NCBI GenBank assembly: GCA_016218825.1
Contig: JACRCV010000015.1
Coordinates: 1 to 64,000, forward strand
Source of the DNA: Deltaproteobacteria bacterium
Lineage (GTDB): Bacteria > Myxococcota > XYA12-FULL-58-9
Reading direction: 5' to 3'
DNA: 64,000 bases
Position 1 is the stretch's first letter. Every line of letters starts with the position of its first letter. The translations under genes and the position numbers were made by a program. Below are positions 292 through 47,575 of this stretch, one piece after another. The notes below the pieces were generated by a model that saw only the letters and a list, made by a program, of their open reading frames with translations, was not told the origin of the DNA and ran no database searches.

Positions 292-2433
292 CTAGTAGGC
301 GCGGATCCCGTACCACCAGGAGTTGGCGTCGAGCTCGCCGCCGAAGAAGGTGAAGCCGGTGGTGCCGACGAGGGCGCTCTCGCCGTTGTCGGCCGGATCG
401 AGCGGATCGCCGAAGATGTCGGCGGCACCGCCGAGCGGCACGTCGTGGATCAGCGCCCGCTGGTCGAACTCGACCTCGAAGATCTGGAACTCGATCTGAG
501 CCAACGCCTCGCCCAGGGCGTTGGCGGCCGCGGCCGCGGCGGCCTCGCAGATCGCCTCGATGCCGGGGACCGAGCAGACGTCACCGCCGGTGGCGTCGCA
601 CATCAGATCGTCGATCGCCTGTTGCAGGTCGTAGCAGGGGATGATGTCGGCGAGGAAGGTCTCGAAGTCGCTGTAGCTGCCGTTCGAGGCCATCAGGGTC
701 ACGGTGTCGAGCACGGCGTTGACGAGCTGCGCCATGCGAAAGCGGACGTTGCGGCCGTTCAGGCGCAGGGCGTTCCCCATGACCTCGCCCAAGAACGGAT
801 CGACGGCCACGCCCAGGCGCAACGGGTCGTCGGAGGTCGCGACGTCGACGGTCGGATCGACGACGACGTCGATCTCGCCGCAGCTCGGGTCGGCCGCGAA
901 CTCGGCCGGACCGCCGGCACAGAAGCTCGGGGCGAAGAAGCGCGCCGACACCCAGTCCTCGACCCCTTGGACGTCGCTGCCGAGCGGCGGGCCGGCGGGC
1001 GTCTGGGTGAGGAGCATGTCACCCTCGGCCTCCATGTTCTGGAACAGATGAATGAAGTCGGCGAGCACCGAGACCAGGGTGCGCACCCACGGCGGCACGT
1101 ACTGGGCGACGAGCTCGGCGATCACCGCCTCGAGGATGTCGCCCAACACCGGGATGTCGATCTGCAGCTGGCTCGCGAACACCAGGCTCAGGAAGTCGAC
1201 CACCGGGCCGAGGCCGTTGACGAAGAACGCCGGCAGGGTGCTGGAGATGTCGAAGTGGTAGGTGGTGTACCACAGGCCGCGCACGTCCATCGCCGCCGTT
1301 GACGACGGCGGCCGGCAGGCGCCTGATTGCGCGTCGCAGCTCCAGCCGCTCGGACAGTCATCGCTGCTCAAACAGCCGTCGGCGGGGATACAGCAGAGGC
1401 CGCTGCCGCAGATCTGGGTGGCGGTGTTGCACTCGCTGTTCTGGTGACACACCTGGGCGCAGGTGTTCAGGGTGCAGGTGCGGGAGGGCTCGGTGGCCGG
1501 CGGGCAGTGGTAGCCGGTGGGACAGTCGGTGTCGGTCTCGCAGTAATTGCTGGCCGGCTTGCAGGTGCCGTTGTCACAGACGTAGCCGGGCTCGCAGTCG
1601 GTGAAATACTGGCACTGTGAGCCGCCGACGCCGTTCGTCACCCGGACGCTGACGCTCGTGGCCTGGACGCCCTGACAGGCGCCGCCGCCGCAGAACTCGA
1701 TGGTGTAGCCGGTGGGCTGGGGCGTGCTGCCGGTCGAGAACCGGATGCTGCCGATCCCGGTGCCGTCGGTGGTGATGCTTACCAACGCGCCCGGGACCGC
1801 GACCGTGTCACTCGTCCCCGGCTCGAGCCGGGCGCCGCTCGCGGACACGCCGCCCTTCAACTCGACCTCGAGCTCGGCGCCGCTCACCGGCGGGCCGTCG
1901 GTGCCGTTCGGCATCACCCGGAGGAGGCGGACGCGGAGGCGCTCGGTGCGGTTCACTGCGGTCGACAGCACCGCCGGCACCATGAGCTCGAGGCGGCGTT
2001 GATCGGCGCGCACCTGGATCGTGAACGTGACCGGATCGGCGCCGGTGGCCGCGGCCTCCACCTGCACCGAGGCGTTCTCGCGGCTGCCGACGTCGACGGT
2101 GATGAACGACAGTCCTTGAGCGTCAGTGGCGGTGCTGTTCGCAGAGAGTGACGGACTGCCCGGCGGGCTGCCGAGCAGGCGCCAGGCGATGGCCTCGCCG
2201 ACCGCGGGGACCAGGCCGCTCGAATCTTGAATGTCGGCGCCGGCCGACTTGAGGGCCACGACCTGGACCGCGACCTCGTCGCCCGGATAGGCCTGTTGGC
2301 CGACGAGGCTCCAAGGCTTGAGGACGAGCTGCAGGTTCTGCGGCGCCTTGTCGCCGCCGCCGGGGTGGCGGGCGCCACAGGCGCAGACCAGGCAGGCCAG
2401 GGTGAGCGACGACGAAAAGCGGAGGGCGGACAT
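292..2433 (-). CDS. Secreted Cys-rich lipoprotein-like protein (713 aa)
   Basis: The N-terminus (MSALRFSSSLTLACLVCAC) is an export signal with several cysteines near its end, so a lipoprotein is likely although the lipobox is not canonical. Residues about 25-270 look like all-beta Ig/Big-type domains. Residues about 274-376 form a disulfide-rich block with repeated spacing of the form C-x5-C-x5-C-x4-C (for example CQYFTDCEPGYVCDNGTC), resembling small EGF/Dickkopf-like modules common in myxobacterial surface proteins. The remaining part has no recognised domain and few cysteines except near residues 590-640. It is probably anchored at the cell surface. No enzyme motif is visible and the function is unknown. 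A TACAAT box lies 7 nt upstream of the ATG. Confidence 0.8.
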   Translation of the reverse strand: MSALRFSSSLTLACLVCACGARHPGGGDKAPQNLQLVLKPWSLVGQQAYPGDEVAVQVVALKSAGADIQDSSGLVPAVGEAIAWRLLGSPPGSPSLSANSTATDAQGLSFITVDVGSRENASVQVEAAATGADPVTFTIQVRADQRRLELMVPAVLSTAVNRTERLRVRLLRVMPNGTDGPPVSGAELEVELKGGVSASGARLEPGTSDTVAVPGALVSITTDGTGIGSIRFSTGSTPQPTGYTIEFCGGGACQGVQATSVSVRVTNGVGGSQCQYFTDCEPGYVCDNGTCKPASNYCETDTDCPTGYHCPPATEPSRTCTLNTCAQVCHQNSECNTATQICGSGLCCIPADGCLSSDDCPSGWSCDAQSGACRPPSSTAAMDVRGLWYTTYHFDISSTLPAFFVNGLGPVVDFLSLVFASQLQIDIPVLGDILEAVIAELVAQYVPPWVRTLVSVLADFIHLFQNMEAEGDMLLTQTPAGPPLGSDVQGVEDWVSARFFAPSFCAGGPAEFAADPSCGEIDVVVDPTVDVATSDDPLRLGVAVDPFLGEVMGNALRLNGRNVRFRMAQLVNAVLDTVTLMASNGSYSDFETFLADIIPCYDLQQAIDDLMCDATGGDVCSVPGIEAICEAAAAAAANALGEALAQIEFQIFEVEFDQRALIHDVPLGGAADIFGDPLDPADNGESALVGTTGFTFFGGELDANSWWYGIRAY

Positions 2434-2446
2434 CGGGGGGATTGTA
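2434..2446 (-). promoter_or_regulatory. Possible -10 box of a (near-)leaderless promoter
   Basis: On the minus strand the sequence TACAAT (2441-2446) ends 7 nt before the ATG of the lipoprotein gene, and no Shine-Dalgarno-like sequence lies between them. A weak -35 candidate, CTGAAC, sits 17 nt further upstream. If the box is used, transcription would start at or next to the start codon. Confidence 0.35.
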
Positions 2447-2584
2447 CTGCAAGTGCCTCCGGAGTTCAGCCCCGCGGTCGAGATCTGCGCCGCCGCCTTG
2501 ACGCCGTCGCGGAGCCCGGGCGGTCACCGTGGCATCGGCGGCGCCGATTGGCTAAGCTTTGGCCGCAACCTTCGAGGAGCGGCT

Positions 2585-4183
2585 GTGACGCAGGCGGTGG
2601 CGCGACTGGTTCCCCTGCCGGACCCGAACAACCGGGCGACGCGCGAGATCCCGATCGGCAAGGCGGTGATCAGCATCGGTCGCAGCCCGAAGAACGACGT
2701 GGTCCTCGTGGATCCCGAGGTGAGCAAGGCGCACGCCGAGCTGTTGATGCGGGGCAACGCGTTTGCGATCAACGACCTCGGCAGCTCCAACGGCACCTAC
2801 GTCAACGGCAAGGCGGTCAGGGACCGGTTGCTCAACCAGGGCGACGTGGTGGAGATCGGCGGCTGCCGCTTCACCTTCGAGCTCGGGGAGGCGGTGCGCC
2901 GGCGCTCCAGCGTCTCGATCGTCGCTCCGAGCCCGATCGACCGAACGCAGGTGTTGCTCAGCAACGCCGTCGCGGCGCTGCGCCCGGCGGATGAGATCAG
3001 CGACGCCGCCCTGCTGCGGCAACGCTACGAGCGGGTCCGCACCGCGTTCACCGCGGTGGGCGAGCTCATCGAGATCACCGATATCGCCAAGCTCTGCCGC
3101 CGGATCCTCGACGCCGCCTTCGGCCTGGTGGGCGCCGAGACCGGGGCGGTGATGCTGTTCGAGGCCGACGAGAGCCTGGTGCCGTGGGCGAGCCGCGGGC
3201 CGGAGGGCGCCGACGGCGACGAGATCCTCATCAGCCGCACGATCGTCGAGCAGGTGATTCGCCAGAAGGAGGCGGTGCTCGCCAGCGACGCGCTGCTCGA
3301 CAGCCGCTTCAAGTCGTCGCAGTCGGTGATCCTGTCGAAGATGCGCTCGCTGATGTGCGTGCCGCTCATCAACGGCGACAACGTCTACGGCATCCTCCAC
3401 GTCGGCAACTCGTCGCGCGCCGCGGCGTTCGCCGAGGGCGACCTGGAGCTGTTGGGCGGCATCGGCGCCGGGGGGGGCGTGGCGCTCGCGAACGCGTTCA
3501 TGGCGCATCGGCTCGCCGAGGAGGCCCGGACTCGGGAGTCGTTGGGGCGCTTCTTGTCCCCGGTGCTCGTCGATCAGGTGATCGGCAACCGCCTGGATCT
3601 GAAGCGGGGCGGCGTCGAGCGCGAGGTCACGGTGATGTTCGCCGACATCCGCGGCTTCACCGCGCTCACCGAAGCCAGCAAGCCGGCCGACGTCGTGACG
3701 CTCTTGAACGAGTACTTCGACCAGATGGCGGAGGTGGTGTTCGCGCACGGGGGGCTCTTGGACAAGTTCATCGGCGATGCGTTGATGGCGGTGTGGGGCA
3801 CGCCGGTGGCGGGCGACGACGACGCCAAACGGGCGCTCGCGGCGGCGGCGGAGATGCAGGAAGGGGTGGCGTCGATGAACGAGATGCGACGGGATCGGGG
3901 GCAGGTGGCGATCGCGATCGGCATCGGGCTCGCGAGCGGCACCTGTGTCGCCGGGGCGATCGGCGCCCGCCGGCGCATGGAGTACACGGTCATCGGCGAC
4001 GCGGTGAACCTGGCGAGCCGCTTGGCGGGCTTGGCGCGGGGTGGCCAAGTGCTGTGCGACGAGGTGACGTTCGCCCGGGCCGGCTCTCCGGCCACGGCGA
4101 GCGTATTGCCGGCCACCCCGGTGAAGGGCAAGACGCACCCGGTGCCGGTCTACGAGCTCACGTCGACGGGGGCGCGAGGCTGA
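2585..4183 (+). CDS. FHA-GAF class III adenylate/guanylate cyclase
   Basis: A cytoplasmic signalling enzyme of 532 residues. The GTG start at 2585 follows GAGGAGC. The FHA domain (about 20-95) has GRSPKNDV, SKAHAEL and SSNGTYVNG, the residues that read phosphothreonine. A GAF sensor domain spans about 150-305. A class III nucleotidyl cyclase domain (about 345-528) has both metal-binding aspartates (FADIRGF and LLDKFIGDALMAVWG), the purine-selecting Lys (in LDKF) and the transition-state Asn/Arg (GDAVNLASRL), so it looks catalytically complete. cAMP is the likelier product, inferred from the Lys and the YTVIGD context. Its stop lies 2 nt before the next start, so it is probably co-transcribed with the MopE-like lipoprotein gene. 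The giant protein at 5736-9272 carries a degenerate version of the same kind of cyclase domain. Confidence 0.92.
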   Translation: MTQAVARLVPLPDPNNRATREIPIGKAVISIGRSPKNDVVLVDPEVSKAHAELLMRGNAFAINDLGSSNGTYVNGKAVRDRLLNQGDVVEIGGCRFTFELGEAVRRRSSVSIVAPSPIDRTQVLLSNAVAALRPADEISDAALLRQRYERVRTAFTAVGELIEITDIAKLCRRILDAAFGLVGAETGAVMLFEADESLVPWASRGPEGADGDEILISRTIVEQVIRQKEAVLASDALLDSRFKSSQSVILSKMRSLMCVPLINGDNVYGILHVGNSSRAAAFAEGDLELLGGIGAGGGVALANAFMAHRLAEEARTRESLGRFLSPVLVDQVIGNRLDLKRGGVEREVTVMFADIRGFTALTEASKPADVVTLLNEYFDQMAEVVFAHGGLLDKFIGDALMAVWGTPVAGDDDAKRALAAAAEMQEGVASMNEMRRDRGQVAIAIGIGLASGTCVAGAIGARRRMEYTVIGDAVNLASRLAGLARGGQVLCDEVTFARAGSPATASVLPATPVKGKTHPVPVYELTSTGARG

Positions 4184-4185
4184 AG

Positions 4186-5742
4186 ATGGACGGTCGCCTG
4201 CTCCTGTGTGTCGGGCTCGCGTGCGCCGGCGGCTGCGCCGGCGACGGCACCCAGTCGGGGAACACCGGCACCGGGTGGAAGCTGCCGCCGGGACGGGTCT
4301 GTGTCGCGAACGACGACTGTCAGAGCGGTTGGTGCATCGACTTCCCTTCCGGAAAGGCCTGCGCCGCGCTGTGCGCCGGCGAGTGCAGCGCCGGTCTCAC
4401 CTGCAAGCGCGTCGACGGGCGCGATCCCGGCTCGCCGTCGATCTGTGTGCCAACGACGTCGAACCTGTGCCTGCCGTGCGAGGTCGACGCCGATTGCGGC
4501 CGCTTCGGCGATCTGTGCCTGGCGACCGACGGTGATCAGCGCTTCTGCGCCTTGGACTGCAGCGCCACCGCGAGCTGTCCGCAGGGGTATCGCTGCGACG
4601 GCATCCGCGGCGACGACGGCCGGGAGTTGTCGCGCCAGTGCCTGCCGATCGTCGGCGGCTGCACCTGCTCGGGCGCCAACGCCGGACAACAGCGACGCTG
4701 CTACAACACCGTGTCCGGGATCGGGCGCTGCGGCGGCTCAGAGGTGTGCGACGCCAACGCCGGCTGGGTGTCGTGTGACGCGCGGACGCCGACCGACGAG
4801 AAGTGCGACCAACAGGACAACGACTGTGACGACGCGATCGACGAGGATCCGAACGGGGCGCCGCTCAACGAGGCGTGTGGCTACGGACCGGAGCCGCGGC
4901 GCGCCGAGTGTGCCGGGGTGACTACGTGCGCGAACGGTATCTATGGCGCCTGTTCGCGCCCGCTGCCGGCGGGCGCCGAGGTCCGTTGTGACGGCCTGGA
5001 CGACGACTGCGACGGCGAGGTCGACGAGGGGCTGCTGCACACCGCGGACCATTGCCGCTGGTGCGGCGACGTCTGCGCGCCGACCGCGGCCTACGACGTG
5101 AGCACGGTGCGCTCGTGCGCGCAAAGCGGCAGCGCCTACTACTGTGACGCGATCAAGTGTCGGGTGCCGCACTTCGACGTCAACGGGCTGGAGGCCGACG
5201 GCTGCGAGGTGGCGGACGATCACCTGCGGATCGGTGACACCGTGACCCTGAACAACACCTGGCGGGATGCCTGGGCATTCGGGGAGTTCGATTGCTGGGA
5301 CGGGAGCGAGACCCACGCCTGCGGCCTGCGGCTGCCGTCGGACGTCCGCCAGCACGCGCCGACGAATCCGCCCCAGCCCAACCTCGACTACCTCCGCTTC
5401 AACTCCACCGGCGGCAGCTGCTTCATGGACAACTGGATCTGCGTGCGCGCCGTCGGTCACCAGAGCACGGACCAGGCCGCGCACCTCGAGGTGTGTGCGT
5501 CCGATGTCGTGCCCGATCTCACGACGCCGCCGACGTTCCCCGCGGCGCGGTGCTCGACGCTGGCGCTCAATACGACGAGCACCGTGGACATCGCCCTCGA
5601 CAACACCAAGGGCGTTCACTACGTCCGGATCCGCTCGTTGGCCGATCTCGGCGGGCCGTTCGCGGGCGCTTACGGGCTCGCGGCCTTCGACAGCGAGGGC
5701 TCCTGTCCTCTCGGTGGTGGCGCCGATCCCTGTGGTTATTGA
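4186..5742 (+). CDS. MopE-type Cys-rich lipoprotein
   Basis: A 518-residue exported protein. The ATG follows the cyclase stop codon by 2 nt. The signal sequence MDGRLLLCVGLACAGGC ends in a plausible lipobox (AGGC). The body is rich in cysteine pairs. Two calcium/metal-binding motifs of the MopE family are present, KCDQQDNDCDDAIDEDPNG and RCDGLDDDCDGEVDEG, at about residues 205-290. A beta-rich C-terminal domain (about 340-518) could be a pre-peptidase-like or lectin-like fold. No catalytic residues were recognised. It probably sits on the outer membrane surface. The gene converges with the next one and overlaps its 3' end by 7 bp. Confidence 0.85.
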   Translation: MDGRLLLCVGLACAGGCAGDGTQSGNTGTGWKLPPGRVCVANDDCQSGWCIDFPSGKACAALCAGECSAGLTCKRVDGRDPGSPSICVPTTSNLCLPCEVDADCGRFGDLCLATDGDQRFCALDCSATASCPQGYRCDGIRGDDGRELSRQCLPIVGGCTCSGANAGQQRRCYNTVSGIGRCGGSEVCDANAGWVSCDARTPTDEKCDQQDNDCDDAIDEDPNGAPLNEACGYGPEPRRAECAGVTTCANGIYGACSRPLPAGAEVRCDGLDDDCDGEVDEGLLHTADHCRWCGDVCAPTAAYDVSTVRSCAQSGSAYYCDAIKCRVPHFDVNGLEADGCEVADDHLRIGDTVTLNNTWRDAWAFGEFDCWDGSETHACGLRLPSDVRQHAPTNPPQPNLDYLRFNSTGGSCFMDNWICVRAVGHQSTDQAAHLEVCASDVVPDLTTPPTFPAARCSTLALNTTSTVDIALDNTKGVHYVRIRSLADLGGPFAGAYGLAAFDSEGSCPLGGGADPCGY

Positions 5743-8700
5743 GACGGCCGGAGCGCGCTGAGGACCTCGCGGCAGCGACTCTCGATGCGAGCCCGGTCGA
5801 TGCCGGGGGCGCCGCGCGCTTTGAGGAGCTGCAACGCCTCGCTCGCCTCGGTGGCCGCGTCGGCGTCGGCGAGGCGGTGGTGCGCGGTGGCGAGCAAGGA
5901 CAAGGCCTCGATGCGCCAGCGGACCGCGCCGAGGCGCAAGGCGGCATGGGCGGCGTCGGTGGCGAGCACCATGGCGCGCTCCGCCGCTCTCTGGCCCTGG
6001 TGGCCGAGCTCGACCTCGGCCCGCACCCAACGGACCCGCAGGCGCAGCAGCTCCGAGCTGGTCTTGTCGGCCAGGCGAGCAGCGGCGGCGGCGGCGCGCG
6101 CGGCCTCCTGGCCCTTGCCGACTTGAGCGAGGAGCGCGGCCAGCGCCAGGTAGGCCTCGATCTTGGTGGTGCGCTGGCGGCGGCTGCGGCAGCCGAGAAC
6201 CGCGAGGCGCAAGATCTCCTCCGCCCTGTCGGGCCGCTCGCCGGCCAGGGCCTGTGCCAGGTTGACGCGGCTCTGGCCGACGCCGCCGACGTCGGCGGCC
6301 TTCTCGCGCAAGCTCAAGGCCTGCTCGAAGCAGGGGATCGCGAGGTCCTCTCGGCCCTCGAGATGCGAGACCTGGCCGAGGGCGTCGAGGACCACCGCGG
6401 TGCCCAGAGGATCCTCGACCTGTTGTTTGAGCGGCAGCGCCCTCTCGAGGTAGCGGCGGGCTTGGATCAGGGCGCCGGTGTCGAGCGCGAACATGCCGAG
6501 GTTCTGCAGCACCAGCCCCATGCCACGGACGTGGCCGAGCCGGTCGTAGATCGCCAGAGCCTGCTTGAGGGCCGAGGCGGCGCCCGGGAGGTCGCGCTCC
6601 CGCCAACGAACCAGCGCCACGGTGCGCAGCGCGTTGGAGAGATCGAGCGGGTCGCCGTGCTGCAGGCGCGTCAGGGCTTTGGTCGCGAGAGCGGCGGCGC
6701 GCGCCAGGTCGCCGGTGAGGAGGTTCAAACGTGCGGCGCGATGCAGCGCCAGGCCGACGCGACGGTCGTCGCCGAGGCCTTCGGCCAGGCCCACCATTTG
6801 CTTGATCAGGGTCCGCTGGGTGTCGCGCTCGGCGCGGGCGTCACGGATCTGCTCACACGCCGCCAACAGATCGAAGCGGACCGCGTCGGTGCCGCCGCCG
6901 GGCGGCTCTTTGAGCTCCAGGGCCTCGGCGGCGAGCTGCAGCCCACGCTTGGCGTCGTGCAGCAAGTGGGCGCGGCGCACCGCGGCCACCGCCGCCGCCA
7001 GGGCACCGGCGACGTCGCCGGACTCGACCCGGTGGCGAAACAGGACCGCGGGGATTTGGCGCAGCGCGTCGGGGTAGCGCTCGCCGTGGGCGGTGAGCGC
7101 GAGCCGATGGGTCTCGCGGCGCTCCTCCGGGGTTTGCAGGCCGTAGGCCACCTTGCGGACCAGGGGATGCGAGAAGCGCACCGTGCCGTTCGGCTCGCGG
7201 CGCATGAAGCCCATCTCTTCGAGGACGCCGACCGAGCGCTTGATCTCCTCGTGCTTGAAGCCGCGGCTGACCCAGATGAGCTCGAGGGTGCGCCAGGACA
7301 ACGGCTCGCCGACCGTGGCCGCCGCTTTGAGGAGAGACGCGAGCTTGAGCGGCAAGTGCTGGATGCGGCGCGCGAGGATGTCATTCGGGCGGCGCGGCAA
7401 ATCGCTGGCAGCGAGCGGCGTCGCAGCCCGCCAGGCGCCGCCGCGGTGCACCATCGCGCCGAGCTCCACCAGGTAGCGGATGATCAACGCCGCCATCAGC
7501 GGCGAATGGCCGCCGCGCTCCTTCAGGAGATGCCGGGCGACCGGAGGCAGCTCTTCTTGATCGAGCATCGAGCTGGCGAGCTCGACGGCCTCGGTGGCGC
7601 GCAGCGGCGCGGCCTCGATCTCGACCAGGCCGGCGGCGGCGAGCGAGGTTGGCAGCCGGGTCTGGCGCGAGACACACAGCAGGACGATCAGCTGCGCGGC
7701 GCCCCGGTAGCTGCCGCCGAGCTGGGCGACGGCTTGCAGGGTCGGCAAGTCGATGCCGTCCGTCTCGCGCAGGATGACGGCGAAGGGGCGGTCGGGCTCT
7801 TGATCGGCCGCGGCCTCGAGGACGACGCGGATCGCGTTGGTGATCTCGAGCCGCAAGGCGACCGACTCACCGCTGTCGGCGAGCGAGTCATCGAGGTCCT
7901 CGGCGCCGAGGAGCGCGGCGAGCGGCTTGAGGACGGAGCGCAGGTGCATGCCGCTCGCGGAGCGGGCCGCCAGGGCCTGGAGGCTCTCAGCGAGGTCGGT
8001 CTGTTTGAGCGGCCCGTCCTCGAAGCCGAGGATCTGGCGGACGACGCTCAACACCGGCCAATAGGGCTCCGGCGCCAGCGGGTGCGGCTCGCCGAGGATG
8101 ATGCGCGACGGCAGCACCCCGAGGTCCAAGAGCGCGTGGCTGGCGAGGCGGCAGCGCCCGGATCCGGGCCGGCCGCGCACCGCGACCAGCGTGACCTTGC
8201 GTCCGGGGGAGCGCAGCGCGGTCTGGAGGCGGCGCAGCGACTGGTCGAGGCCGACGAACGCCGGCTCGCTGACGAGCGCGGCTTGCTCCAGGCGATCGAC
8301 CCACTGCGGTTGGTCCGGGTCGAGACGGAATACCGGCAGCGTCGCGGTGACCGGGCGGAGCGCGAAGGTGGCGGCGGTCGTGATCTGGATCGCGGCGTCG
8401 GCGAGGATGACGCCGGGGTGGGCGGCGGTGGCGATGGTGAGGAGACGCGCGAAGGCGTCGCCGTGGGCCTCGGGGGTCTCACCGGCCGGCGCGTCGGCCA
8501 GGCAGATGGTGCCGCGGGCGATGCCGAAGCCGCAGCGGCTCAAGGGCGCCTGGCGTTGCAGGGTCAGCGCCAGGCTCACCGCTTCGGGGGCGTCGCTGTC
8601 GTTGACCCGGGCGAAGATCAGCGCCGCCGACAGGGTCGGGGTGTCGAGGATCAGTCGGGCCCCGGTCTCGGTGACGATCTGGCGAAAGAGGGCGCGCCCC

Positions 8701-9272
8701 TGGCGGAGAGCGGCGGCCGGCGCGGGCAGGTCGGGCGGCGGCACCTCCGGGGTCGGCGGATCGCGCCAGCGGATGCCGACGAGCGACGCCAGGACCTGCT
8801 CGTCCTTGGCCTCGGCCAAGAGCTCGCGGATGTTGCGGACCATCGTCGGATCCCGCGGCTCGACGACGGTCGGGGTCGAGACCGGGTGCAGGGTCTCGGG
8901 GCCCGGCAAACCCTCGATCAGCTCGGCGACGATCCGATCGAGCGCGGCGCTGGCGATGTGGGTGGCGCGGCGATTGTCGAGCTCGAGCAGCAGCACGCCG
9001 CGCGCCGCCGAGGCCAGGCGGAGGAGGGCACCGGCGAGGAGAGCCGAGGAGAGGGCCTGCGCCGAGAGGATCTCAGCGGCGACGGTGTGCAGCCGGGGGT
9101 GGCGGGGCAGCCGCACCCGATCCACGAGCGCCTGCAGCAGGTCGCCGACCAGGCCGTCCAGGTTGGCGCGCCCGAGACCGCGCAGCTCGGGGTGGTCGTG
9201 CCACAGGACGCTCGCCACCTCGGCGACGATGCGCTCGCGGTGTGCGGCGATGACCTGGTCGAAGGTTGGCAT
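5736..9272 (-). CDS. Giant cyclase-like / STAND-ATPase-like / TPR protein, both enzymatic domains degenerate
   Basis: 1178 residues with the layout of cyclase-ATPase-TPR regulators, but with catalytic residues missing. An uncharacterised N-terminal helical region (1-190) is followed by a cyclase-like domain (about 194-314). There the metal-site motif reads ALIFARVND instead of xxxFADIxGFT, although the later GIARGTICLAD and LRPVTATLPVFRL still match the fold. At about residue 366 the P-loop reads GRPGSGRC, with Arg for the essential Lys and Cys for Ser/Thr. The Walker B position reads FAVILRETDG, lacking the Asp pair. Residues about 790-1170 are TPR-like helices. I infer a scaffold or signal-sensing pseudo-enzyme, probably cytoplasmic. 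The start (ATG at 9272) is the first in the frame. Confidence 0.8.
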   Translation of the reverse strand: MPTFDQVIAAHRERIVAEVASVLWHDHPELRGLGRANLDGLVGDLLQALVDRVRLPRHPRLHTVAAEILSAQALSSALLAGALLRLASAARGVLLLELDNRRATHIASAALDRIVAELIEGLPGPETLHPVSTPTVVEPRDPTMVRNIRELLAEAKDEQVLASLVGIRWRDPPTPEVPPPDLPAPAAALRQGRALFRQIVTETGARLILDTPTLSAALIFARVNDSDAPEAVSLALTLQRQAPLSRCGFGIARGTICLADAPAGETPEAHGDAFARLLTIATAAHPGVILADAAIQITTAATFALRPVTATLPVFRLDPDQPQWVDRLEQAALVSEPAFVGLDQSLRRLQTALRSPGRKVTLVAVRGRPGSGRCRLASHALLDLGVLPSRIILGEPHPLAPEPYWPVLSVVRQILGFEDGPLKQTDLAESLQALAARSASGMHLRSVLKPLAALLGAEDLDDSLADSGESVALRLEITNAIRVVLEAAADQEPDRPFAVILRETDGIDLPTLQAVAQLGGSYRGAAQLIVLLCVSRQTRLPTSLAAAGLVEIEAAPLRATEAVELASSMLDQEELPPVARHLLKERGGHSPLMAALIIRYLVELGAMVHRGGAWRAATPLAASDLPRRPNDILARRIQHLPLKLASLLKAAATVGEPLSWRTLELIWVSRGFKHEEIKRSVGVLEEMGFMRREPNGTVRFSHPLVRKVAYGLQTPEERRETHRLALTAHGERYPDALRQIPAVLFRHRVESGDVAGALAAAVAAVRRAHLLHDAKRGLQLAAEALELKEPPGGGTDAVRFDLLAACEQIRDARAERDTQRTLIKQMVGLAEGLGDDRRVGLALHRAARLNLLTGDLARAAALATKALTRLQHGDPLDLSNALRTVALVRWRERDLPGAASALKQALAIYDRLGHVRGMGLVLQNLGMFALDTGALIQARRYLERALPLKQQVEDPLGTAVVLDALGQVSHLEGREDLAIPCFEQALSLREKAADVGGVGQSRVNLAQALAGERPDRAEEILRLAVLGCRSRRQRTTKIEAYLALAALLAQVGKGQEAARAAAAAARLADKTSSELLRLRVRWVRAEVELGHQGQRAAERAMVLATDAAHAALRLGAVRWRIEALSLLATAHHRLADADAATEASEALQLLKARGAPGIDRARIESRCREVLSALRPSQ

Positions 9273-9299
9273 TCGGCGGCGGACCTGGGGCCGGCCGCG

Positions 9300-10043
9300 C
9301 TACTCCGTGAGCTCGGCGCAAATGAAGTCGCGATTCATCTCGGCGATGAAGCGGCGGTTGATCTGCTTGGGGCAGGCGCCCTCGCAGTCATAGGTGTTGG
9401 TGCAGTTGCCGAAGCCCTCTTTGTCCATCTGGCCGGTCATGCGGCGCACCCGCTCCTTGCGCTCCGCCTGGCCCTGCGGCAAGTGGGCGAACTGGCCGAC
9501 CTTGGCGGCGACGAACAACATCGCCGAGGCGTTCTTGCAGGCCGCGACGCACGCGCCGCAGCCGATGCAGGCCGCGGCGTCCATGCTCAAGTCGGCCTCC
9601 TTCTTGCGGATCGGCAGGGCGTTGGCGTCCGGGGTGCCGCCGGTGCGCACCGACACGAAGCCGCCGGCCTGCATGATGCGATCCAGCGCGCTGCGGTCGG
9701 TGACACAGTCCTTGAGCACCGGGAACGCCCGGGCGCGCCAGGGCTCGACGGTGATGACGTCGCCGTCCTTGAAGTGCCGCATGTGCAGCTGGCAGGTGGT
9801 CGTCGCCGGCAGCGGCCCGTGCGGGTAGCCGTTGATCATCAACGAGCAGGCGCCGCAGATCCCCTCGCGACAGTCGTGGTCGAAGGCCACCGGCTCCTGA
9901 CCCTTGTCGATGAGCGACTCGTTGAGCACGTCCAACATCTCCAGGAAGGACATGTGCTCGCTGACGTCGGCGAGCGGAAAGGTCACGAAGGCGCCGCGCT
10001 CGCGAGGGTTCTTCTGGCGCCAGATGCGCAGGGTGAGCTTCAT
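9300..10043 (-). CDS. sdhB: Succinate dehydrogenase/fumarate reductase iron-sulfur subunit
   Basis: A 247-residue electron-transfer subunit that passes electrons from the SdhA flavin to quinone through SdhC. The [2Fe-2S] site is visible as CREGICGAC plus a later Cys (TTTCQLHM). The [4Fe-4S] and [3Fe-4S] sites appear as [11 protein letters not shown] and [13 protein letters not shown]. Its ATG overlaps the sdhA stop by 4 bp, so translation is probably coupled. The gene ends the sdhCAB operon. Direction in vivo (succinate oxidation or fumarate reduction) cannot be told from sequence. Confidence 0.95.
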
Positions 10044-11953
10044 TTGTAGCTCCTCACCGCCAGCTTGACGGTCTCGAAGGTCAGCGGCTCCTTGTTCAAG
10101 AGCGGCGCCTTGTCGGCGCCGGCGTACTCCCAGACGGTCGCGTGGCTGAAGCCGGCGTCGTCGCGCTTCGCTTCGCCGTCCGCCATCTGGCTCTCCTCGC
10201 GGAAGTGGCCGCCGCAGGACTCGGTGCGCATCAGGGCGTCGAGGCACAACAGCTCGGCGAACTCGAGGAAGTCCGCGACCCTGCCGGCGTGCTCCAGGAC
10301 CGCGTTGTAGTCGTCGCTGTGGCCGGTGAGCTTGAGGTTCTTCCAGAACTCCTCGCGCAGCGCCGGGATCTGCTGCAGCGCCTCCTTGAGCCCCTTCTCG
10401 TTGCGGGCCATGCCGCACTTCTCCCACACGATCTTGCCGAGCTCGCGGTGGAACGAGTCCGGGGTGCGCTTGCCGTTTGCCGTGGTCAGGCGCTTGATGC
10501 GCTCGCGGACCTCGGCCTCGACGCGCTTGAACTCGGCGTGGTCGGTCTTGACCTTGCCGAGCTTGTTCGACGCGAAGTAGTGGCCGATGGTGTAGGGGAT
10601 GATGAAGTAGCCGTCGGCGAGCCCCTGCATCAGCGCGCTGGCGCCGAGGCGGTTGGCGCCGTGATCGGAGAAGTTGGCCTCGCCGAGCACGTGCAGACCC
10701 TCGATGGTGCTCATCAGGTTGTAGTCCACCCACAGGCCGCCCATCGCATAGTGCGGCGCCGGGTAGATGCGCATCGGCACCTGGTAGGGGTTCTCGCCGG
10801 TGATGCGCTCGTACATCTCGAAGAGGTTGCCGTAGCGCTCGGCGATGACGTTCTGCCCCAGCCGGCCGATGGCGTCGGCGAAGTCGAGGTAGACGCCGTA
10901 GCCGCCCGGACCGACGCCGCGGCCGTCGTCGCAGGCCTCCTTGGCGGCGCGCGACGAGATGTCCCGCGGCGCGAGGTTGCCGTAGCTCGGGTATTTCCGT
11001 TCCAGGTAGTAGTCGCGCTCGCTCTCGGGGATCTGCGCCGGAGAGCGCCGGTCGCCGCGGATCTTCGGCACCCACCCCCGGCCGTCGTTGCGCAACGACT
11101 CCGACATCAGGGTCAGCTTCGATTGGTAGTCCCCGGAGCGCGGGATGCAGGTCGGGTGGATCGGCGTGAAGCAGGGGTTGGCGAACGCCGCGCCGCGCTT
11201 GTAGGCTCGCTCGCCCGCCGTGACGTTGCAGGCCTTGGCGTTCGTCGACAGGTAGAAGACGTTGGCGTAGCCGCCGGTCGCGAGGACCACGGCGTCGGCG
11301 GCGTGCGAGCGGATCTCGCCGGTCGTCAGGTCGCGTACCACGATGCCGCGGGCCCGGCCGTCGACCACGACCACGTCGAGCATCTCGGTGCGGACGTGCA
11401 TCTTGACGGTGCCGAGGCCCACCTGGCGCATCAACGCGCCGTAGGCCCCGAGGAGCAGCTGCTGCCCGGTCTGGCCGCGGGCGTAGAAGGTGCGCGACAC
11501 CTGGGCGCCGCCGAACGACCGGTTGTCGAGCAGGCCGCCGTACTCGCGGGCGAACGGCACCCCCTGGGCGACGCACTGGTCGATGATCGCGCTCGACACC
11601 TGCGCCAAGCGGTAGACGTTGGCCTCGCGGGCTCGGAAGTCGCCGCCCTTGACGGTGTCGTAGAACAGCCGCTCTATCGAGTCGCCGTCGTTCGGGTAGT
11701 TCTTCGCGGCGTTGATGCCGCCCTGCGCCGCGATCGAGTGGGCGCGGCGGGCGGAGTCGTTGAAGCAGAAGGCCTCGACGTTGTAGCCGAGCTCGGCCAA
11801 GGACGCGGCCGCCGAGGCGCCGGCGAGGCCGGTGCCGACGACGATGACGTCGAACTTGCGCTTGTTCGCCGGGTTGACGAGCTTCATCTCGAAGCGGTGT
11901 TTGTCCCACTTCTCTTGGATCGGACCGGACGGGATCTTGGCATCCAGGTTCAT
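10040..11953 (-). CDS. sdhA: Succinate dehydrogenase/fumarate reductase flavoprotein subunit
   Basis: A 637-residue catalytic subunit facing the cytoplasm. It has the FAD-binding fold ([14 protein letters not shown], residues about 36-49) and the covalent flavinylation motif around His72 ([14 protein letters not shown]). It resembles the type that pairs with a single five-helix cytochrome b (B-type complex), as in Bacillus and Wolinella enzymes. Start and stop each overlap the neighbouring sdh gene by 4 bp (ATGA). Confidence 0.95.
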
Positions 11954-12651
11954 GGCGCGATCACTCCCGCCGGCAGCTGCACCAATCCCATCAGGATGGC
12001 GACCGGCATCGAGACGTTGCCGACCACGAGGACGGCGCAGACCAACAGACTGACGGCGTCGATGAGGCGGCGATACTTCGGCGTCGTCAGGCCGAGTGAC
12101 TGAAAGGTGCTGCCGATGGCGTGCCAGAGGTGCAGGCCCAACAGCAGCAGGGCGACGACGTAGGCCCCGGCGATCAGGCGCTCGCTGAAGCTCAGCACCA
12201 CCATCGAGTAGACGTCGAGGCGTCCCTGGGCGTCATGCAGCTGGCTGAAGGCCGGGTTCGTCAGCCGCCAGGTGAACTGCAGCAGGTGGTAGACCAGGAA
12301 CGCGAACACCACGAGTCCGGTCACCAGCATGTTGCGCGACGCGAAGCTGGAGAGGATCGGCCGCTTCACCGCGTAGGCCACCGGCCGCGCGGCGTTGTTG
12401 AGCCAGGTCAGCCGCACCGACGACACGATGTGAAGCACCGCCGCCAAGATCAGGCCGCTGCGCACGACCCAAAGGAGCGCGGGCTTGCTGTGCAGGAACG
12501 CGGCGTAGGCGTTCAGCGGCTCCTGGCCGCCCAAGACCTGGAGGTTGCCGACCATGTGGCCGACCAAGAAGGCCACCAGGACGAGCCCGGTGAGCGCCAT
12601 CACCACCTTGGCGCCAATCGATGACAACGCCAGGTTGACGAGCCAACGCAT
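11950..12651 (-). CDS. sdhC: Succinate dehydrogenase cytochrome b subunit (B-type)
   Basis: A 233-residue membrane anchor with five hydrophobic segments and conserved histidines suited to two b haems (for example [28 protein letters not shown] and [10 protein letters not shown]). The start ATG at 12651 is chosen because AAAGGAGAAG precedes it at good distance; a longer frame begins at 12762 but lacks a comparable site. A single large subunit instead of an SdhC/SdhD pair marks a B-type complex. It is the first gene of sdhCAB. Malate dehydrogenase lies 154 bp upstream on the same strand. Confidence 0.93.
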
Positions 12652-12805
12652 GAGATCTTCTCCTTTCGACCGACCAGAACCGCTCTTTGCTGTGGAGGTC
12701 GCTGCAGTCACCGCGGGGCACGATGCCATCACCCCAAGTGCGGCGACCGCGGTGCCGCTCAATCGCCGACCGGCGGCAAAGCGGCACGTTTCGCGGCAGG
12801 TGACA

Positions 12806-13759
12806 CTAGAGACGCTTGTCGACTTCGACGCACAGCTCTTTGACGCGGCTGGCGCTCTTCATCAGCGCGTCGCGGTCGTCCTTCGAGAGCTCGGCGTCGA
12901 TCACCTTCTCGACGCCGCCGGCGCCGATGACCACCGGGACGCCGACGAACATGTCCTTGAGGCCGTACTCGCCGCGCAGCCACGCCGCCGCCGGGAGCAC
13001 CCGCTTCTTGTCGCGCAGGTAGCTCTCGACCATCGTGATGCTGGCCGCCGCCGGCGAGTAGTAGGCGCTGCCGGTCTTGTAGAGGGCGACGATCTCGCCG
13101 CCGGCCTTGCGGGTCCGGTCGACGATCTTGTCGATCTCTTCCTTCTTCATCATCTGGTTGAGCGGGATGCCGCCGACCGCGCAGTACTGGACCACCGGCA
13201 CCATGTCGTCGCCGTGGCCACCGAGCACGAACGCGGTGACGTCCTCGATCGAGACCCCGAGCTTCTCGGCCACGAAGTAGCGGAAGCGGCCGGAGTCCAA
13301 GACCCCCGCCATGCCCACCACCTGCTGGTGGTTGAAGCCGGTGATCTTGTAGAGGGCGTAGACCATCGCGTCGAGGGGGTTCGAGACCACGACCACGAAG
13401 GCCTCGGGGCAGAACTTCTTCACGTTGACCGCGACGTCCTTCATGATCTTGACGTTGACGTCCAACAGCTCGTCGCGGCTCATGCCCGGCTTGCGCGGCT
13501 TGCCGGCGGTGACGATGACGACGTCGGCGCCTTTGATGTCGTCCCAGTTGGTCGTGCCCTTGAAGCCGGCGTCGAAGCCCTGGATCGGCGACATCTGCGC
13601 GATGTCCAACGCCTTGCCCTTGGCGATCCCCTCCAGGTCGGGGATGTCGAGCAGCGTGACGTCACCGAGCTCTTTCTGGGCCGCCATCAGGGCGAGGTTG
13701 CCGCCGATCTGGCCTGCGCCGACGAGGGCGATCTTCGGACGATGCATGTGATGAGTCAT
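12806..13759 (-). CDS. mdh: Malate dehydrogenase (LDH-like type)
   Basis: A 317-residue NAD-dependent enzyme interconverting malate and oxaloacetate. Motifs: dinucleotide-binding [10 protein letters not shown] (15-24), the substrate-binding Arg region [22 protein letters not shown], and the catalytic His in [10 protein letters not shown]. The start is set by GGAGGAGAAC directly upstream of the ATG. Its location before sdhCAB on the same strand makes a TCA-cycle gene group. A perfect 22-bp palindrome lies 18 nt upstream of the start codon, in the probable leader or promoter. Confidence 0.95.
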
Positions 13760-13776
13760 GTTCTCCTCCGGGGTTA

Positions 13777-13798
13777 GCCCGCGCGCGTGCGCGCGGGC
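13777..13798. promoter_or_regulatory. Perfect 22-bp GC palindrome upstream of mdh
   Basis: Two 10-nt arms (GCCCGCGCGC and GCGCGCGGGC) flank a 2-nt centre, in the divergent region between mdh and the receiver-GGDEF gene. It could be an operator or a stem in the mdh leader. No regulator can be named. Confidence 0.4.
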
Positions 13799-13906
13799 GC
13801 CGAATTGGGGCGAGCCCGGTCCACGCGGGCAAGCCTAGTTACCGCTAAGTGTCGAGGGGGGCAAGGGCGTCGGCCGGGGTCGGGTCGCGCCTCACGGCGC
13901 CGATGC

Positions 13907-13936
13907 GTGACCGGGGGCGCAAGACCACTATATAAT
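13907..13936 (+). promoter_or_regulatory. Sigma-70-like promoter for the receiver-GGDEF gene
   Basis: A consensus -10 box TATAAT (13931-13936) is preceded, after 18 bp, by GTGACC (13907-13912; 4 of 6 match to TTGACA). The GTG start lies 33 nt downstream, giving a short leader. This is among the clearest promoter-like sequences in a very GC-rich window. Confidence 0.6.
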
Positions 13937-13969
13937 GATGGCTCGATCTTCAGGGAAACGGAGTCTCGG

Positions 13970-15007
13970 GTGAGTGCTTCGCCGCGGATCCTCGTCGTCG
14001 ATGACGACCAGATCGTACGCTCGGTTTTTGCGTCGCTGTTGCCGCGCGAGGGCTACCAGGCGGACGTCGCCGAAGGCGCCGAGGCGGCCCTCGAGCTGTT
14101 GGCGCAGAACCCCTACGACCTGGTGATCTCCGACATCGTGTTGCCGGGGATGGACGGCGTCCAGCTGTTGCGGCGCATCAAGGTGCTGTTCCCGAAGATT
14201 GAGGTCATCCTGATGACCGCATACGCCAACATGGACACCCTGCTGCAGGCGCTGCACGCCGGGGTCTACGACTACTTGATCAAGCCCTTCGACAACCTCG
14301 AGGACGTGCTGCACAAGGTGGCGCGGGCGCTGGAGAAACGCTCGATCCTCGACGAGAACCAGCGGCTCATCGAATACCTGAGGCAGGCGAACGCGCAGAT
14401 CGAGATCATGAACCGCGACCTGGAGCGCCAGGTGGCCGAGCGCACCAGGCAACTGGAGGCGGCGAACGCGCGCTTGGAGCAGCTGAGCCTGACCGACGAC
14501 GTCACCGGCCTGTACAACCAGCGGTTCCTGCACCAGCGCCTCGAGGAAGAGTTCCGCCGCGCGCAGCGCTACAAACACCCGCTGTCGGTGATCATGATCG
14601 ACATCGACGAGTTCAAGCGGGTCAACGACACCCACGACCACCTGTTCGGGTCCCGGGTGCTGGCGCGGCTCGGCAAGCTCTTCAAGGACGGGCTGCGCAA
14701 CCTCGATCTGGTCATTCGTTACGGCGGCGACGAGTTCGTCGTCATCCTGCCGCACACCGGCCTCGACCAGGCGGTGCCGGTGGCAGAGCGGCTGCGGGCC
14801 AAGGTCGAGGAGGCCGACGTCGGCGAGGCCGGCGAGGTCTACAAGGTGACGATCTCGCTCGGGACCGCCGCGCTCGGCCAGTGTGACGCCGACAACGCCC
14901 AGGCGCTGTTGCGCGCCGCCGACCAGGCGCTCTACCTCGCCAAGCACAGCGGCCGGAATCGGGTCGCGGTGATGCACGGTCACGAACCCGTGGCCGTCGT
15001 CGCCTGA
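13970..15007 (+). CDS. Receiver-GGDEF diguanylate cyclase
   Basis: A 345-residue response regulator that should make cyclic di-GMP when activated. The receiver domain (about 5-125) has the acidic pair DDD at 11-13, phospho-acceptor Asp55 (ISDIVLPGMDG) and Lys in LIKPF. A coiled coil (about 130-170) links it to the GGDEF domain. The signature GGDEF is intact (about 252-256), and an inhibitory-site motif RNLD lies five residues before it, so product inhibition is expected. The GTG start is chosen because the receiver begins there and GGAG lies 8 nt upstream. It stands alone, 21 bp before fabI. Confidence 0.93.
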   Translation: MSASPRILVVDDDQIVRSVFASLLPREGYQADVAEGAEAALELLAQNPYDLVISDIVLPGMDGVQLLRRIKVLFPKIEVILMTAYANMDTLLQALHAGVYDYLIKPFDNLEDVLHKVARALEKRSILDENQRLIEYLRQANAQIEIMNRDLERQVAERTRQLEAANARLEQLSLTDDVTGLYNQRFLHQRLEEEFRRAQRYKHPLSVIMIDIDEFKRVNDTHDHLFGSRVLARLGKLFKDGLRNLDLVIRYGGDEFVVILPHTGLDQAVPVAERLRAKVEEADVGEAGEVYKVTISLGTAALGQCDADNAQALLRAADQALYLAKHSGRNRVAVMHGHEPVAVVA

Positions 15008-15028
15008 ATCGGCTACAAGACCGGACCC

Positions 15029-15835
15029 ATGGGCTTGATGGATGGTCGGCGCGGCCTGGTCGTCGGCACCGCCAACGAGCGAAGTCTGGCGTACGGGATC
15101 GCGCGCGCCGCCCGCCGTGAGGGCGCTCGCTTGGCGCTCACCTTCCAGAATGACCGCTTGCGGCGGCGGGTCGAGCCGCTCTCGACCGAGCTCGGCGCCG
15201 AGCTGCTCTTGCCCTGTGACGTGACCCGGCCGGACGAGGTGGTCGCGGTTCGGGACGCCGTCTTGCGCCAATGGGGCGGGCTGGATTTCCTGGTGCACGC
15301 GGTCGCGCACGCACGCCGCGAAGAGCTTTGCGGCCGCTTCGTCGACACCAGCCGCGACGGCTTCGTCGAGGCCATGGAGGTGTCGGTGTTCAGCCTGGTG
15401 TCGCTGGTGCGCGCCTTCGAGCCGCTGCTCCTCGCGGGGACGGCGGCGAGCGTGCTGACGCTGACGTACTACGGCAGCGACAAGGCGTTCCCGCACTACA
15501 ACGTGATGGGTGTGGCAAAGGCGGCGCTCGAGGCCGCGGTGCGCTACCTCGCCGCCGAGCTCGGGCCGGCCGGCATCCGCGTCAACGCGATCTCGGCGGG
15601 GCCCATCAAGACGCTGTCGGCGGCCGGAGTCCGCGGGCTGCGATCGGCGCTCTGCCTGGTCGAGCGCGTCGCGCCCCTGCGGCGGAACGTCGACATCGAC
15701 GACGTCGGCCGTGCAGCGCTGCCGTTCTTGTCCGAGCTCTGTGGCGCCACCACCGGCGCGGTGTTGTTCGTCGACAGCGGCTACCACGTGATCGGCGCGG
15801 TGGCCGCGGACCCGACCGGGGGGGAGTCGTCGTGA
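15029..15835 (+). CDS. fabI: Enoyl-[acyl-carrier-protein] reductase (NADH)
   Basis: A 268-residue short-chain dehydrogenase of the FabI type, catalysing the last step of each fatty-acid elongation cycle. Visible are the nucleotide-binding start [17 protein letters not shown] and the FabI-typical catalytic pair Tyr-x6-Lys in [26 protein letters not shown] is the usual substrate-loop motif. It is longer at the C-terminus than some FabI proteins. The stop overlaps the dut start by 4 bp (GTGA). Confidence 0.92.
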
Positions 15836-16287
15836 GCGTCGTTCGGATCGAGGTCGCCGCCATCGACGCGCGGCTGGGGCGGGAGATCCCGTGGCCGGCG
15901 CGGATGAGCGAGCACGCCGCCGGCTACGACGTCGCCGCCGCGGTGGCCGAGCCGGTGACCCTCGAGCCCGGCGAGCGCGTCCTGGTGCCGTGCGGCTTCG
16001 CGATGGCGGTGCCGGTGGGCTACGAGGTGCAGGTGCGGCCGCGCAGCGGCCTGGCGATCAAGCACGGCATCGGGTTGTTGAACGCCCCCGGGACCATCGA
16101 CGCCGACTATCGCGGCGAGGTCCGGGTCATCCTCATCAACCATGGCAACGCTCCGTTCGTGATCGAGCCCGGCATGCGGGTGGCACAGCTCGTCGTCGCG
16201 AGCGTGGTGCCGGCGACGTTCGTGACGGTGGCGGCGCTGCCGGCAACGGCGCGTGGTCCAGGTGGGTTCGGGTCGACCGGGACGTAA
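15832..16287 (+). CDS. dut: dUTP diphosphatase
   Basis: A 151-residue trimeric-type dUTPase that hydrolyses dUTP to dUMP and keeps uracil out of DNA. All five motifs are present in order: [38 protein letters not shown] and GPGGFGSTG. The GTG start is supported by overlap with the fabI stop and an upstream GGGGGGAG. Confidence 0.95.
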
Positions 16288-16421
16288 GGTCTTGGCCTTT
16301 CAGTGAATCCTGGGTAGGAATGGGGCGCGGGCGAGCCCGCCCGTGTGTTTGGCTGTGGCGGGTGTTCGGTCGCGGCCATGGCCTCGTGTGGGGCGCAGTC
16401 GCGCCCGTGTGGGAGCTTGCT

Positions 16422-19022: not shown

Positions 19023-19034
19023 ACGGGAAAAGCG

Positions 19035-19409
19035 ATGCAAAAGCTCATGGTCGTAGATGATTCGGGGGCGATGCGCAGCCTGATCGCCTCCATCCTCGGT
19101 GACTTCCCGGACCTGGAGGTCGTGGAGGCCGCGAACGGCTTCGAGGCGCTGAAGTTGTTGCCGCGGGCCGCGATCGATCTGTTGGTCTTGGACCTGAACA
19201 TGCCCGGGCTCTCCGGGCTCGAGGTGCTGTCGTTCGTGAAGAAGAGCCCCGACCTCGCCAAGACCCGGGTGCTGATCGTGACCACCGCGGGCCGGGAAGA
19301 AGATCGGCGCCGTGCGATCTCCCTCGGCGCCGATGACTACGTGACCACGCCCTTCGAGCCGGACGCCCTGGTGGCCGCGGTCCGGCGGCTGCTCGGCGTG
19401 GGGGGCTGA
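19035..19409 (+). CDS. Single-domain receiver (CheY-like) lacking the conserved Lys
   Basis: A 124-residue stand-alone receiver. The acidic pair (VVDDSG), acceptor Asp53 (VLDLNMPG) and switch Thr (IVTTAG) are all present. The position of the invariant Lys (52 residues after the Asp, normally xTKPF) is Thr105 (YVTTPF). In CheY-type receivers this Lys contacts the phosphoryl group and helps activation, so this protein may be a phosphate sink or respond unusually; that is inference. The gene sits 12 bp after the DUF4388 gene and 1 bp before cheA. Confidence 0.93.
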   Translation: MQKLMVVDDSGAMRSLIASILGDFPDLEVVEAANGFEALKLLPRAAIDLLVLDLNMPGLSGLEVLSFVKKSPDLAKTRVLIVTTAGREEDRRRAISLGADDYVTTPFEPDALVAAVRRLLGVGG

Positions 19410-19410
19410 G

Positions 19411-45383: not shown

Positions 45384-45391
45384 AGGTCGTC

Positions 45392-47560: not shown

Positions 47561-47575
47561 GAAGGGCGTGCGGTC

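Follow-up and report, generated by a model that had tools for sequence, protein, structure and literature searches.

Can a large protein that lacks key residues in two enzymatic domains still be maintained by selection, and in what role? This question is raised by a minus-strand gene at 5736..9272 of contig JACRCV010000015.1 (assembly GCA_016218825.1) of a Deltaproteobacteria bacterium from the Myxococcota, the window analysed here being the first 64,000 nucleotides of that contig. The initial annotation described the product, termed P0001 below, as a giant TPR protein with a pseudo-cyclase and a pseudo-ATPase, and its coordinates and size were confirmed: the frame opens with an ATG at 9272 and encodes 1178 aa, as supported by alignment with the homologue from a congener (genome G001) and by codon-position constraint. 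With a rough probability of 0.55, P0001 is a conserved inactive STAND protein in which an N-terminal domain and the remnant of a dead cyclase precede a STAND module devoid of the P-loop Lys and of the Asp in Walker B, with a TPR tail at the end; it would bind partners through its TPRs and be produced together with succinate dehydrogenase (sdh) in its genus. The architecture, motif losses, conservation, clade and gene order set out below were established by sequence comparison. Prior work on this protein was not found in the open-licence literature.

Degenerate ATPase motifs

The degenerate nucleotide-binding domain of P0001 (about residues 320–560, 7593..8315, borders approximate; all features of the protein lie on the minus strand) was assigned to the STAND type on the basis of a TIGR03903 match and a phylogenetic tree. 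Its P-loop (residues 367–374, 8151..8174) reads GRPGSGRC in place of GxxxxGK(S/T), as had been noted from the sequence, with Lys replaced by Arg and Ser/Thr by Cys; the congener has GRAGCGRY. The Walker B region, AVILRETDGID (residues 498–508, 7749..7781), carries Arg502 and Glu503 at the acidic pair, where all 23 outgroup STANDs from the same phylum show E/D-D. The statement that the Walker B Asp is absent therefore stands for the Asp itself, but one acidic residue, Glu503, persists. The corresponding congener region is REVEAVD and also lies in an open frame. By alignment, GK(S/T) and the Walker B acids are retained in each of the five other frames of the same genome that exceed 1000 aa and match AAA_16 above the cut-off. 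An ADP/ATP switching cycle is unlikely in P0001 because both the P-loop Lys and the Walker B Asp are gone.

Conservation of the gene in the genus

Selection had been deduced from the intact frame of 1178 codons, an argument that carries little weight here, since GC content at third codon positions is 92% and an antisense frame of 1585 codons also runs through the locus (5292–10049). Better evidence comes from the congener, which carries the gene as two pieces, each reaching a contig end and each in an open frame, with 43% identity to P0001 over residues 1–427 and 54% over residues 464–1168. Both proteins have Arg for the P-loop Lys, no Asp in the Walker B pair, and Pro where the cyclase would bind metal. 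The initial annotation would have regarded the gene as decaying if only this copy were degenerate and its homologues intact; a search for homologues with the same substitutions instead recovered the G001 copy, degenerate in the same residues within open frames.

Over 1133 aligned codons, the two genes differ at codon positions 1, 2 and 3 by 0.40, 0.30 and 0.58, whereas saturation would give 0.69, 0.75 and 0.66. The third position is the most divergent in each of seven parts of the gene, including the cyclase part (0.42/0.30/0.51) and the two ATPase halves (0.39/0.25/0.64 and 0.37/0.31/0.54). The conservation seen in these differences shows the frame to be real. Together, the open-framed congener with the key substitutions, the third-position excess and the absence of Walker B acids from all seven members of the clade described below uphold the view that the gene is selected rather than decaying. 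The N-terminal portion has a narrow distribution: of 189 genomes searched with a profile of residues 1–318, 3 gave a match, both members of the genus and one further genome with a marginal match that has an internal stop; at most 11 candidates were scored per genome, which makes the absences soft.

Likely order of motif loss in the clade

P0001 had a match at E≤1e-8 in 25 of 195 genomes of the phylum. At most three candidates per genome were scored in this search and at most eight in a second one, run with a profile of seven aligned STAND cores, so absences are again soft. The seven members behind that profile matched it at E values of 5.5e-124 to 9.2e-224, and the next match was at 2.6e-33; since these rows built the profile, their strong scores are expected, whereas the gap is less easily explained in this way. 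The same seven are separated from all other rows of a 30-row tree by a branch that has support 100/99 and recurs in 100% of 200 bootstrap trees. The tree is midpoint-rooted, and the stem and inner branches of the clade are long (0.66–0.86). Eight loci were left out of it, four as duplicates (L097, L098, L099 and L116) and L105–L108 as near copies, and two further loci, L071 and L075, entered the input and met no threshold, so they are absent from the counts.

Walker B acids are present in none of the seven clade members and in all 23 outgroup rows. The P-loop motif GK(S/T) occurs in all 22 outgroup rows that include this region, one (L101) being without it. Within the clade, GK(S/T) is kept in three of the five distant members (G190, G193 and G194), an f30 relative reading GVGKT, G191 and G192 have GKA, and the Lys is lost only in the genus of P0001, where P0001 has GRC and G001 has GRY. 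The simplest order suggested by these sequences is stepwise, with Walker B lost first and the P-loop weakening later, furthest in this genus. The idea of a loss in two domains at once is not borne out.

Outside the phylum set, contigs of genomes searched with P0001 alone yielded no related locus, and a search with the two-row alignment of P0001 and its congener returned the congener contig only. No match was found among viral contigs, and plasmids gave short TPR matches in six records.

The cyclase remnant

The region ahead of the ATPase (about residues 197–313, 8334..8684) was compared with class III cyclases by hhalign in local mode, with a two-row profile of P0001 and its congener as query and column shuffles as controls. 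Against a profile that joined the corresponding regions of 13 relatives with 15 cyclase domains from the same genome, the score was 38.6 (probability 78%, 89 columns; best of 100 shuffles, 21.2), a value somewhat favoured because the 13 relatives were found by a search with P0001 and trimmed via their alignment to it. The relatives alone gave 34.1 over 114 columns (best of 100 shuffles, 20.8), and the 15 domains alone gave 26.4–27.2 with a probability of 14–16% (best of 60 shuffles, 19.9). Eight of these 15, mostly canonical, gave 14.5, which is no signal. The strength of the cyclase signal thus varies with the choice of target profile. The 15 domains derive from the 18 Guanylate_cyc matches that Pfam gives in this genome, P0001 not being one of them; the two weakest matches were not taken, and of the 16 pieces cut, one with a stop in its padding was dropped.

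The alignment spans about residues 197–311, and homology to class III cyclases was found for the C-terminal two thirds of the catalytic domain alone. In both congeners, the column of the second metal Asp, that of the 'GD' motif, is occupied by Pro212, so the pair of metal aspartates is incomplete. No alignment was obtained for the strand expected to hold the first metal Asp, a residue that is likely lost in P0001 as well. The earlier description of a cyclase that keeps its fold signature and lacks its metal Asp is therefore borne out at the position of Pro212 and over the C-terminal two thirds.

In the f30/f31 relatives, the segment preceding the ATPase scored 9.2–12.1 against cyclases by hhalign, within the range of the shuffles, and the remnant is therefore claimed for the genus of P0001 only. 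A multiple alignment places an Asp at the metal column in all five f30/f31 rows, an alignment that is without profile support. Among the 13 relatives outside the clade, seven lack the 'GD' metal Asp although their ATPase motifs are intact; a dead cyclase is therefore common in this type of protein and independent of the ATPase loss, contrary to the suggestion that both activities were lost jointly.

Other cyclase-like domains were observed in the same genome. Two minus-strand frames, L074:217-4710 on contig C68 (1498 aa) and L075:659-4441 on contig C21 (1261 aa), have GHR at the position expected for the metal GD, with the P-loop and Walker B acids intact. At L071 (contig C79, approximately 44000–50000), adjoining frames of 1502 and 1914 aa each carry a cyclase-like domain.

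Domain layout and relation to known proteins

P0001 begins with an N-terminal domain (residues 1–125, 8898..9272) that shares 44% identity with the congener and matches no Pfam family at E≤10. The nucleotide-binding domain is followed by a helical domain, a winged helix and an arm (about residues 561–800, 6873..7592, borders approximate), assigned by comparison of a model with PH0952, and by a TPR sensor-like region (about residues 820–1178, 5739..6815). TPR models are the only Pfam matches of the protein, with TPR_12 (E=6.4e-15) covering three stretches, which gives it the repeat sensor of a STAND. Neither AAA_16 nor Guanylate_cyc matches it at E≤1, and three separate pieces of the protein, the cyclase piece included, match no Pfam family at E≤10. 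A search of solved structures by sequence gave four weak matches, all of them across the TPR part. The ATPase piece of the congener has a sub-cut-off match to STAS_2 (E=5.1e-4) that is better than its match to AAA_16 (E=0.055).

In NCBIfam, residues 310–769 correspond to positions 455–902 of TIGR03903, the TOMM kinase/cyclase fusion family (E=1.3e-14), at 53.1 bits, far under the curated cut-off of 705.75. The ATPase part is therefore regarded as real but divergent, and as placed in the manner of cyclase-STAND-TPR proteins; TIGR03903 proteins and kinase-cyclase-AAA-TPR proteins likewise carry a cyclase-like part directly ahead of the STAND module. P0001 differs from them in its low score, in its lost ATPase motifs and in the absence of their N-terminal kinase domain, the match beginning at model position 455 and Pfam giving no kinase family.

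The order of nucleotide-binding, helical, winged-helix, arm and TPR regions is shared with PH0952 and MalT, which are STAND ATPases with TPR sensors (the PH0952 architecture as given in PMC6468293). Unlike these, P0001 has an additional N-terminal domain and the cyclase remnant, and both the P-loop Lys and the Asp of Walker B are missing. Published descriptions allow a comparison with other STANDs that have lost their motifs. BrxB of BREX systems and its counterparts are without Walker motifs and were proposed to be sensors (PMC12839542), while MoxR-vWA systems of multicellular bacteria include iSTAND and iSTAND2, proposed to be nucleic-acid receptors, along with some inactive cyclase domains (PMC7159879, PMC8195603). 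P0001 shares with the iSTAND modules of BREX (BrxB, PglW and PglZ) and of MoxR-vWA ternary systems a STAND-type fold whose Walker A and B motifs are degenerate, fast evolution and a role as a sensor, which is predicted, whereas the BREX modules are described as lacking a C-terminal helical bundle and P0001 has a winged helix, a TPR tail and neighbours from the tricarboxylic acid (TCA) cycle. Among the NLRs of plants and animals, which are eukaryotic immune receptors, PMC3478704 describes Pb1 as naturally P-loop-less and the helpers ADR1-L2 and NLRC4 as needing no functional nucleotide-binding domain; for these STAND-fold proteins, activity without nucleotide handling is known or proposed. Any likeness to P0001, a bacterial protein with TPRs instead of LRR sensors, is drawn from such descriptions.

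Gene neighbourhood

Upstream of P0001 and on the same strand lie sdhB, sdhA, sdhC and mdh (9300..13759, minus strand), and the P0001 ATG is located 27 bases past the sdhB stop. Pfam supports sdhB (Fer2_3), sdhA (FAD_binding_2 and Succ_DH_flav_C) and mdh (Ldh_1_N/C), while sdhC, whose frame in the window has no Pfam match, is assigned from its position and a sub-cut-off Sdh_cyt match of the congener (E=6.2e-5). Neither a sigma-70-like promoter nor a terminator-like site was found in 9100–9600. The order mdh-sdhC-sdhA-sdhB-P0001 gene is present in both genomes of the genus; in G001, an ATG lies 1 base past the sdhB stop and a second one, equivalent to the P0001 start, 19 bases past it. Of the eight genomes of the class, seven have sdhB, and in one of them (G006) the contig ends 143 bases past it, so that the presence of the gene there is not visible. 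An operon link with sdh is thus suggested by gene order as a genus-level arrangement.

Other genes nearby include one for a protein of FHA-GAF-cyclase architecture whose cyclase match is intact (2318–4183, plus strand); the third gene past sdhB in G005 (L067 5883–7490) has the same Pfam domains, and the neighbourhood is therefore partly conserved within the taxonomic order. A Cys-rich gene with putative metal-binding motifs of the MopE type (approximately 4200–5742, plus strand) converges on the STAND gene, and in the congener the corresponding position is taken by a similar-looking Cys-rich frame (L010 2–1168). A response regulator with a GGDEF domain (13787–15007, plus strand) adjoins mdh.

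Counter-evidence and alternative explanations

Several observations weigh against a conserved inactive STAND linked to sdh. The gene does not lie behind sdhB in G002, G003, G004 or G005, the four other genomes of the class in which this stretch is visible, and the few kb around the f30/f31 genes contain neither sdh nor mdh. P0001 is also fast-evolving, with 50% identity to its G001 counterpart compared with 89% for sdhB, 84% for sdhA, 81% for mdh and 67% for sdhC; its NG86 dN/dS of 0.13–0.55 is rough, as dS (0.9–2.9) is near saturation.

Structure prediction of both domains, proposed as a check in the initial annotation, was informative for one part only. An AlphaFold model of residues 130–335 alone, covering the cyclase, reached a pLDDT of 36.9 and was not used. 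The model of the ATPase and winged helix, built from two rows, had a mean pLDDT of 50.9 with residues 1–158 of the fragment below 50; the nucleotide-binding part was modelled poorly and only the better C-terminal half was used. Model residues 244–416 (protein residues 561–733) resembled the STAND PH0952 (6mfv) with Z 12.1 and root mean square deviation 4.3 over 141 residues, although a Z of about 12 may reflect an arrangement common in helical proteins. The next neighbours in the PDB were entries of CED-4, Apaf-1 and MalT (Z 10.3–10.7), and Foldseek returned no match at E≤0.001, its best being 2.0e-3. The STAND class is nevertheless supported because the top structural rows agree on STANDs and the TIGR03903 match does as well; with the caution on helical matches, helical and winged-helix domains do follow the nucleotide-binding domain.

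The persistence of Glu503 and of the GxxGxGR glycines in both congeners leaves room for residual nucleotide binding. The site could accordingly be non-canonical, with Arg in the role of Lys and Glu503 in that of the Walker B acid, and still bind nucleotide in a slow or locked switch, and GK(S/T) is indeed kept in three of the five distant clade members. This seems unlikely, as the P-loop Lys and Ser/Thr are both gone from the two copies of the genus, the Ser/Thr position varies between Cys and Tyr, and Arg has replaced the first acid of Walker B.

Fast evolution is also a feature of iSTAND, iSTAND2 and BrxB, which are without nucleotide motifs and are predicted sensors or nucleic-acid receptors, with myxobacteria among their hosts (PMC12839542, PMC7159879, PMC8195603). 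P0001 could by analogy be the sensor of a conflict system that recognizes nucleic acid or another signal of an invader and triggers an effector. The surroundings make this quite improbable: nine neighbouring frames scanned with Pfam (292–2433 and 9300–19937) contain neither the MoxR nor the vWA domain expected beside the iSTANDs of MoxR-vWA systems, the adjacent genes belong to the TCA cycle and to signalling, and PADLOC yields a single TPR model for P0001 and nothing else. The likeness to the iSTAND families itself is one of published descriptions.

A further explanation assigns P0001 to a mixed complex as the dead partner of an intact STAND encoded elsewhere in the genome, as proposed for immune receptors with degenerate P-loops and their sensor receptors. 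Precedents are described for NLRs (PMC3478704) and for two paired bacterial STANDs of which one is eroded (PMC8195603), and the genome encodes five or more long STAND frames whose motifs are intact. No AAA_16 match occurs in the same nine frames, however, and the neighbours differ, as judged by eye, in four of the five f30/f31 loci, so that this role too has little probability. Decay of a former STAND regulator now being lost from the lineage, which the low identity relative to the four neighbouring genes and the small number of clade members might suggest, is very improbable in view of the open frames of both congeners, the third-position excess in every part, and the substitutions and neighbours that they have in common.

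Proposed mechanism and significance

A conserved inactive STAND would presumably act by binding other molecules, as a binding switch or as a scaffold. STANDs with TPR sensors, as described in PMC6468293, are closed around ADP at rest and are opened by an inducer, which leads to nucleotide exchange and multimerization. In P0001, the TPR tail would bind a partner, and this binding, rather than ADP/ATP exchange, might rearrange or hold the STAND core, the N-terminal part thereby being displayed or concealed as a docking surface. Presumably made together with succinate dehydrogenase in this genus, the protein may regulate this enzyme or the mdh-sdhCAB genes.

Inactive bacterial STANDs are already known; P0001 differs from them in the TPR tail, the cyclase remnant, the staged loss of motifs and the metabolic neighbours. 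A broader proposal, which is tentative and on balance doubtful, is that a clade of TPR-sensor STANDs in this phylum lost Walker B and then the P-loop to become nucleotide-independent, ligand-driven scaffolds outside defence, in parallel to iSTANDs and P-loop-less NLRs, and that one of them was recruited behind mdh-sdhCAB, coupling the TCA cycle to signalling.

STANDs are thought to switch via ADP/ATP exchange, and their inactive bacterial members have, in the sources cited here, been described mainly from defence systems. The clade, in which Walker B is lost throughout and the P-loop is kept in some members, provides a natural series with which nucleotide binding, hydrolysis and switching could be separated, and it suggests that inactive STANDs may serve metabolism too.

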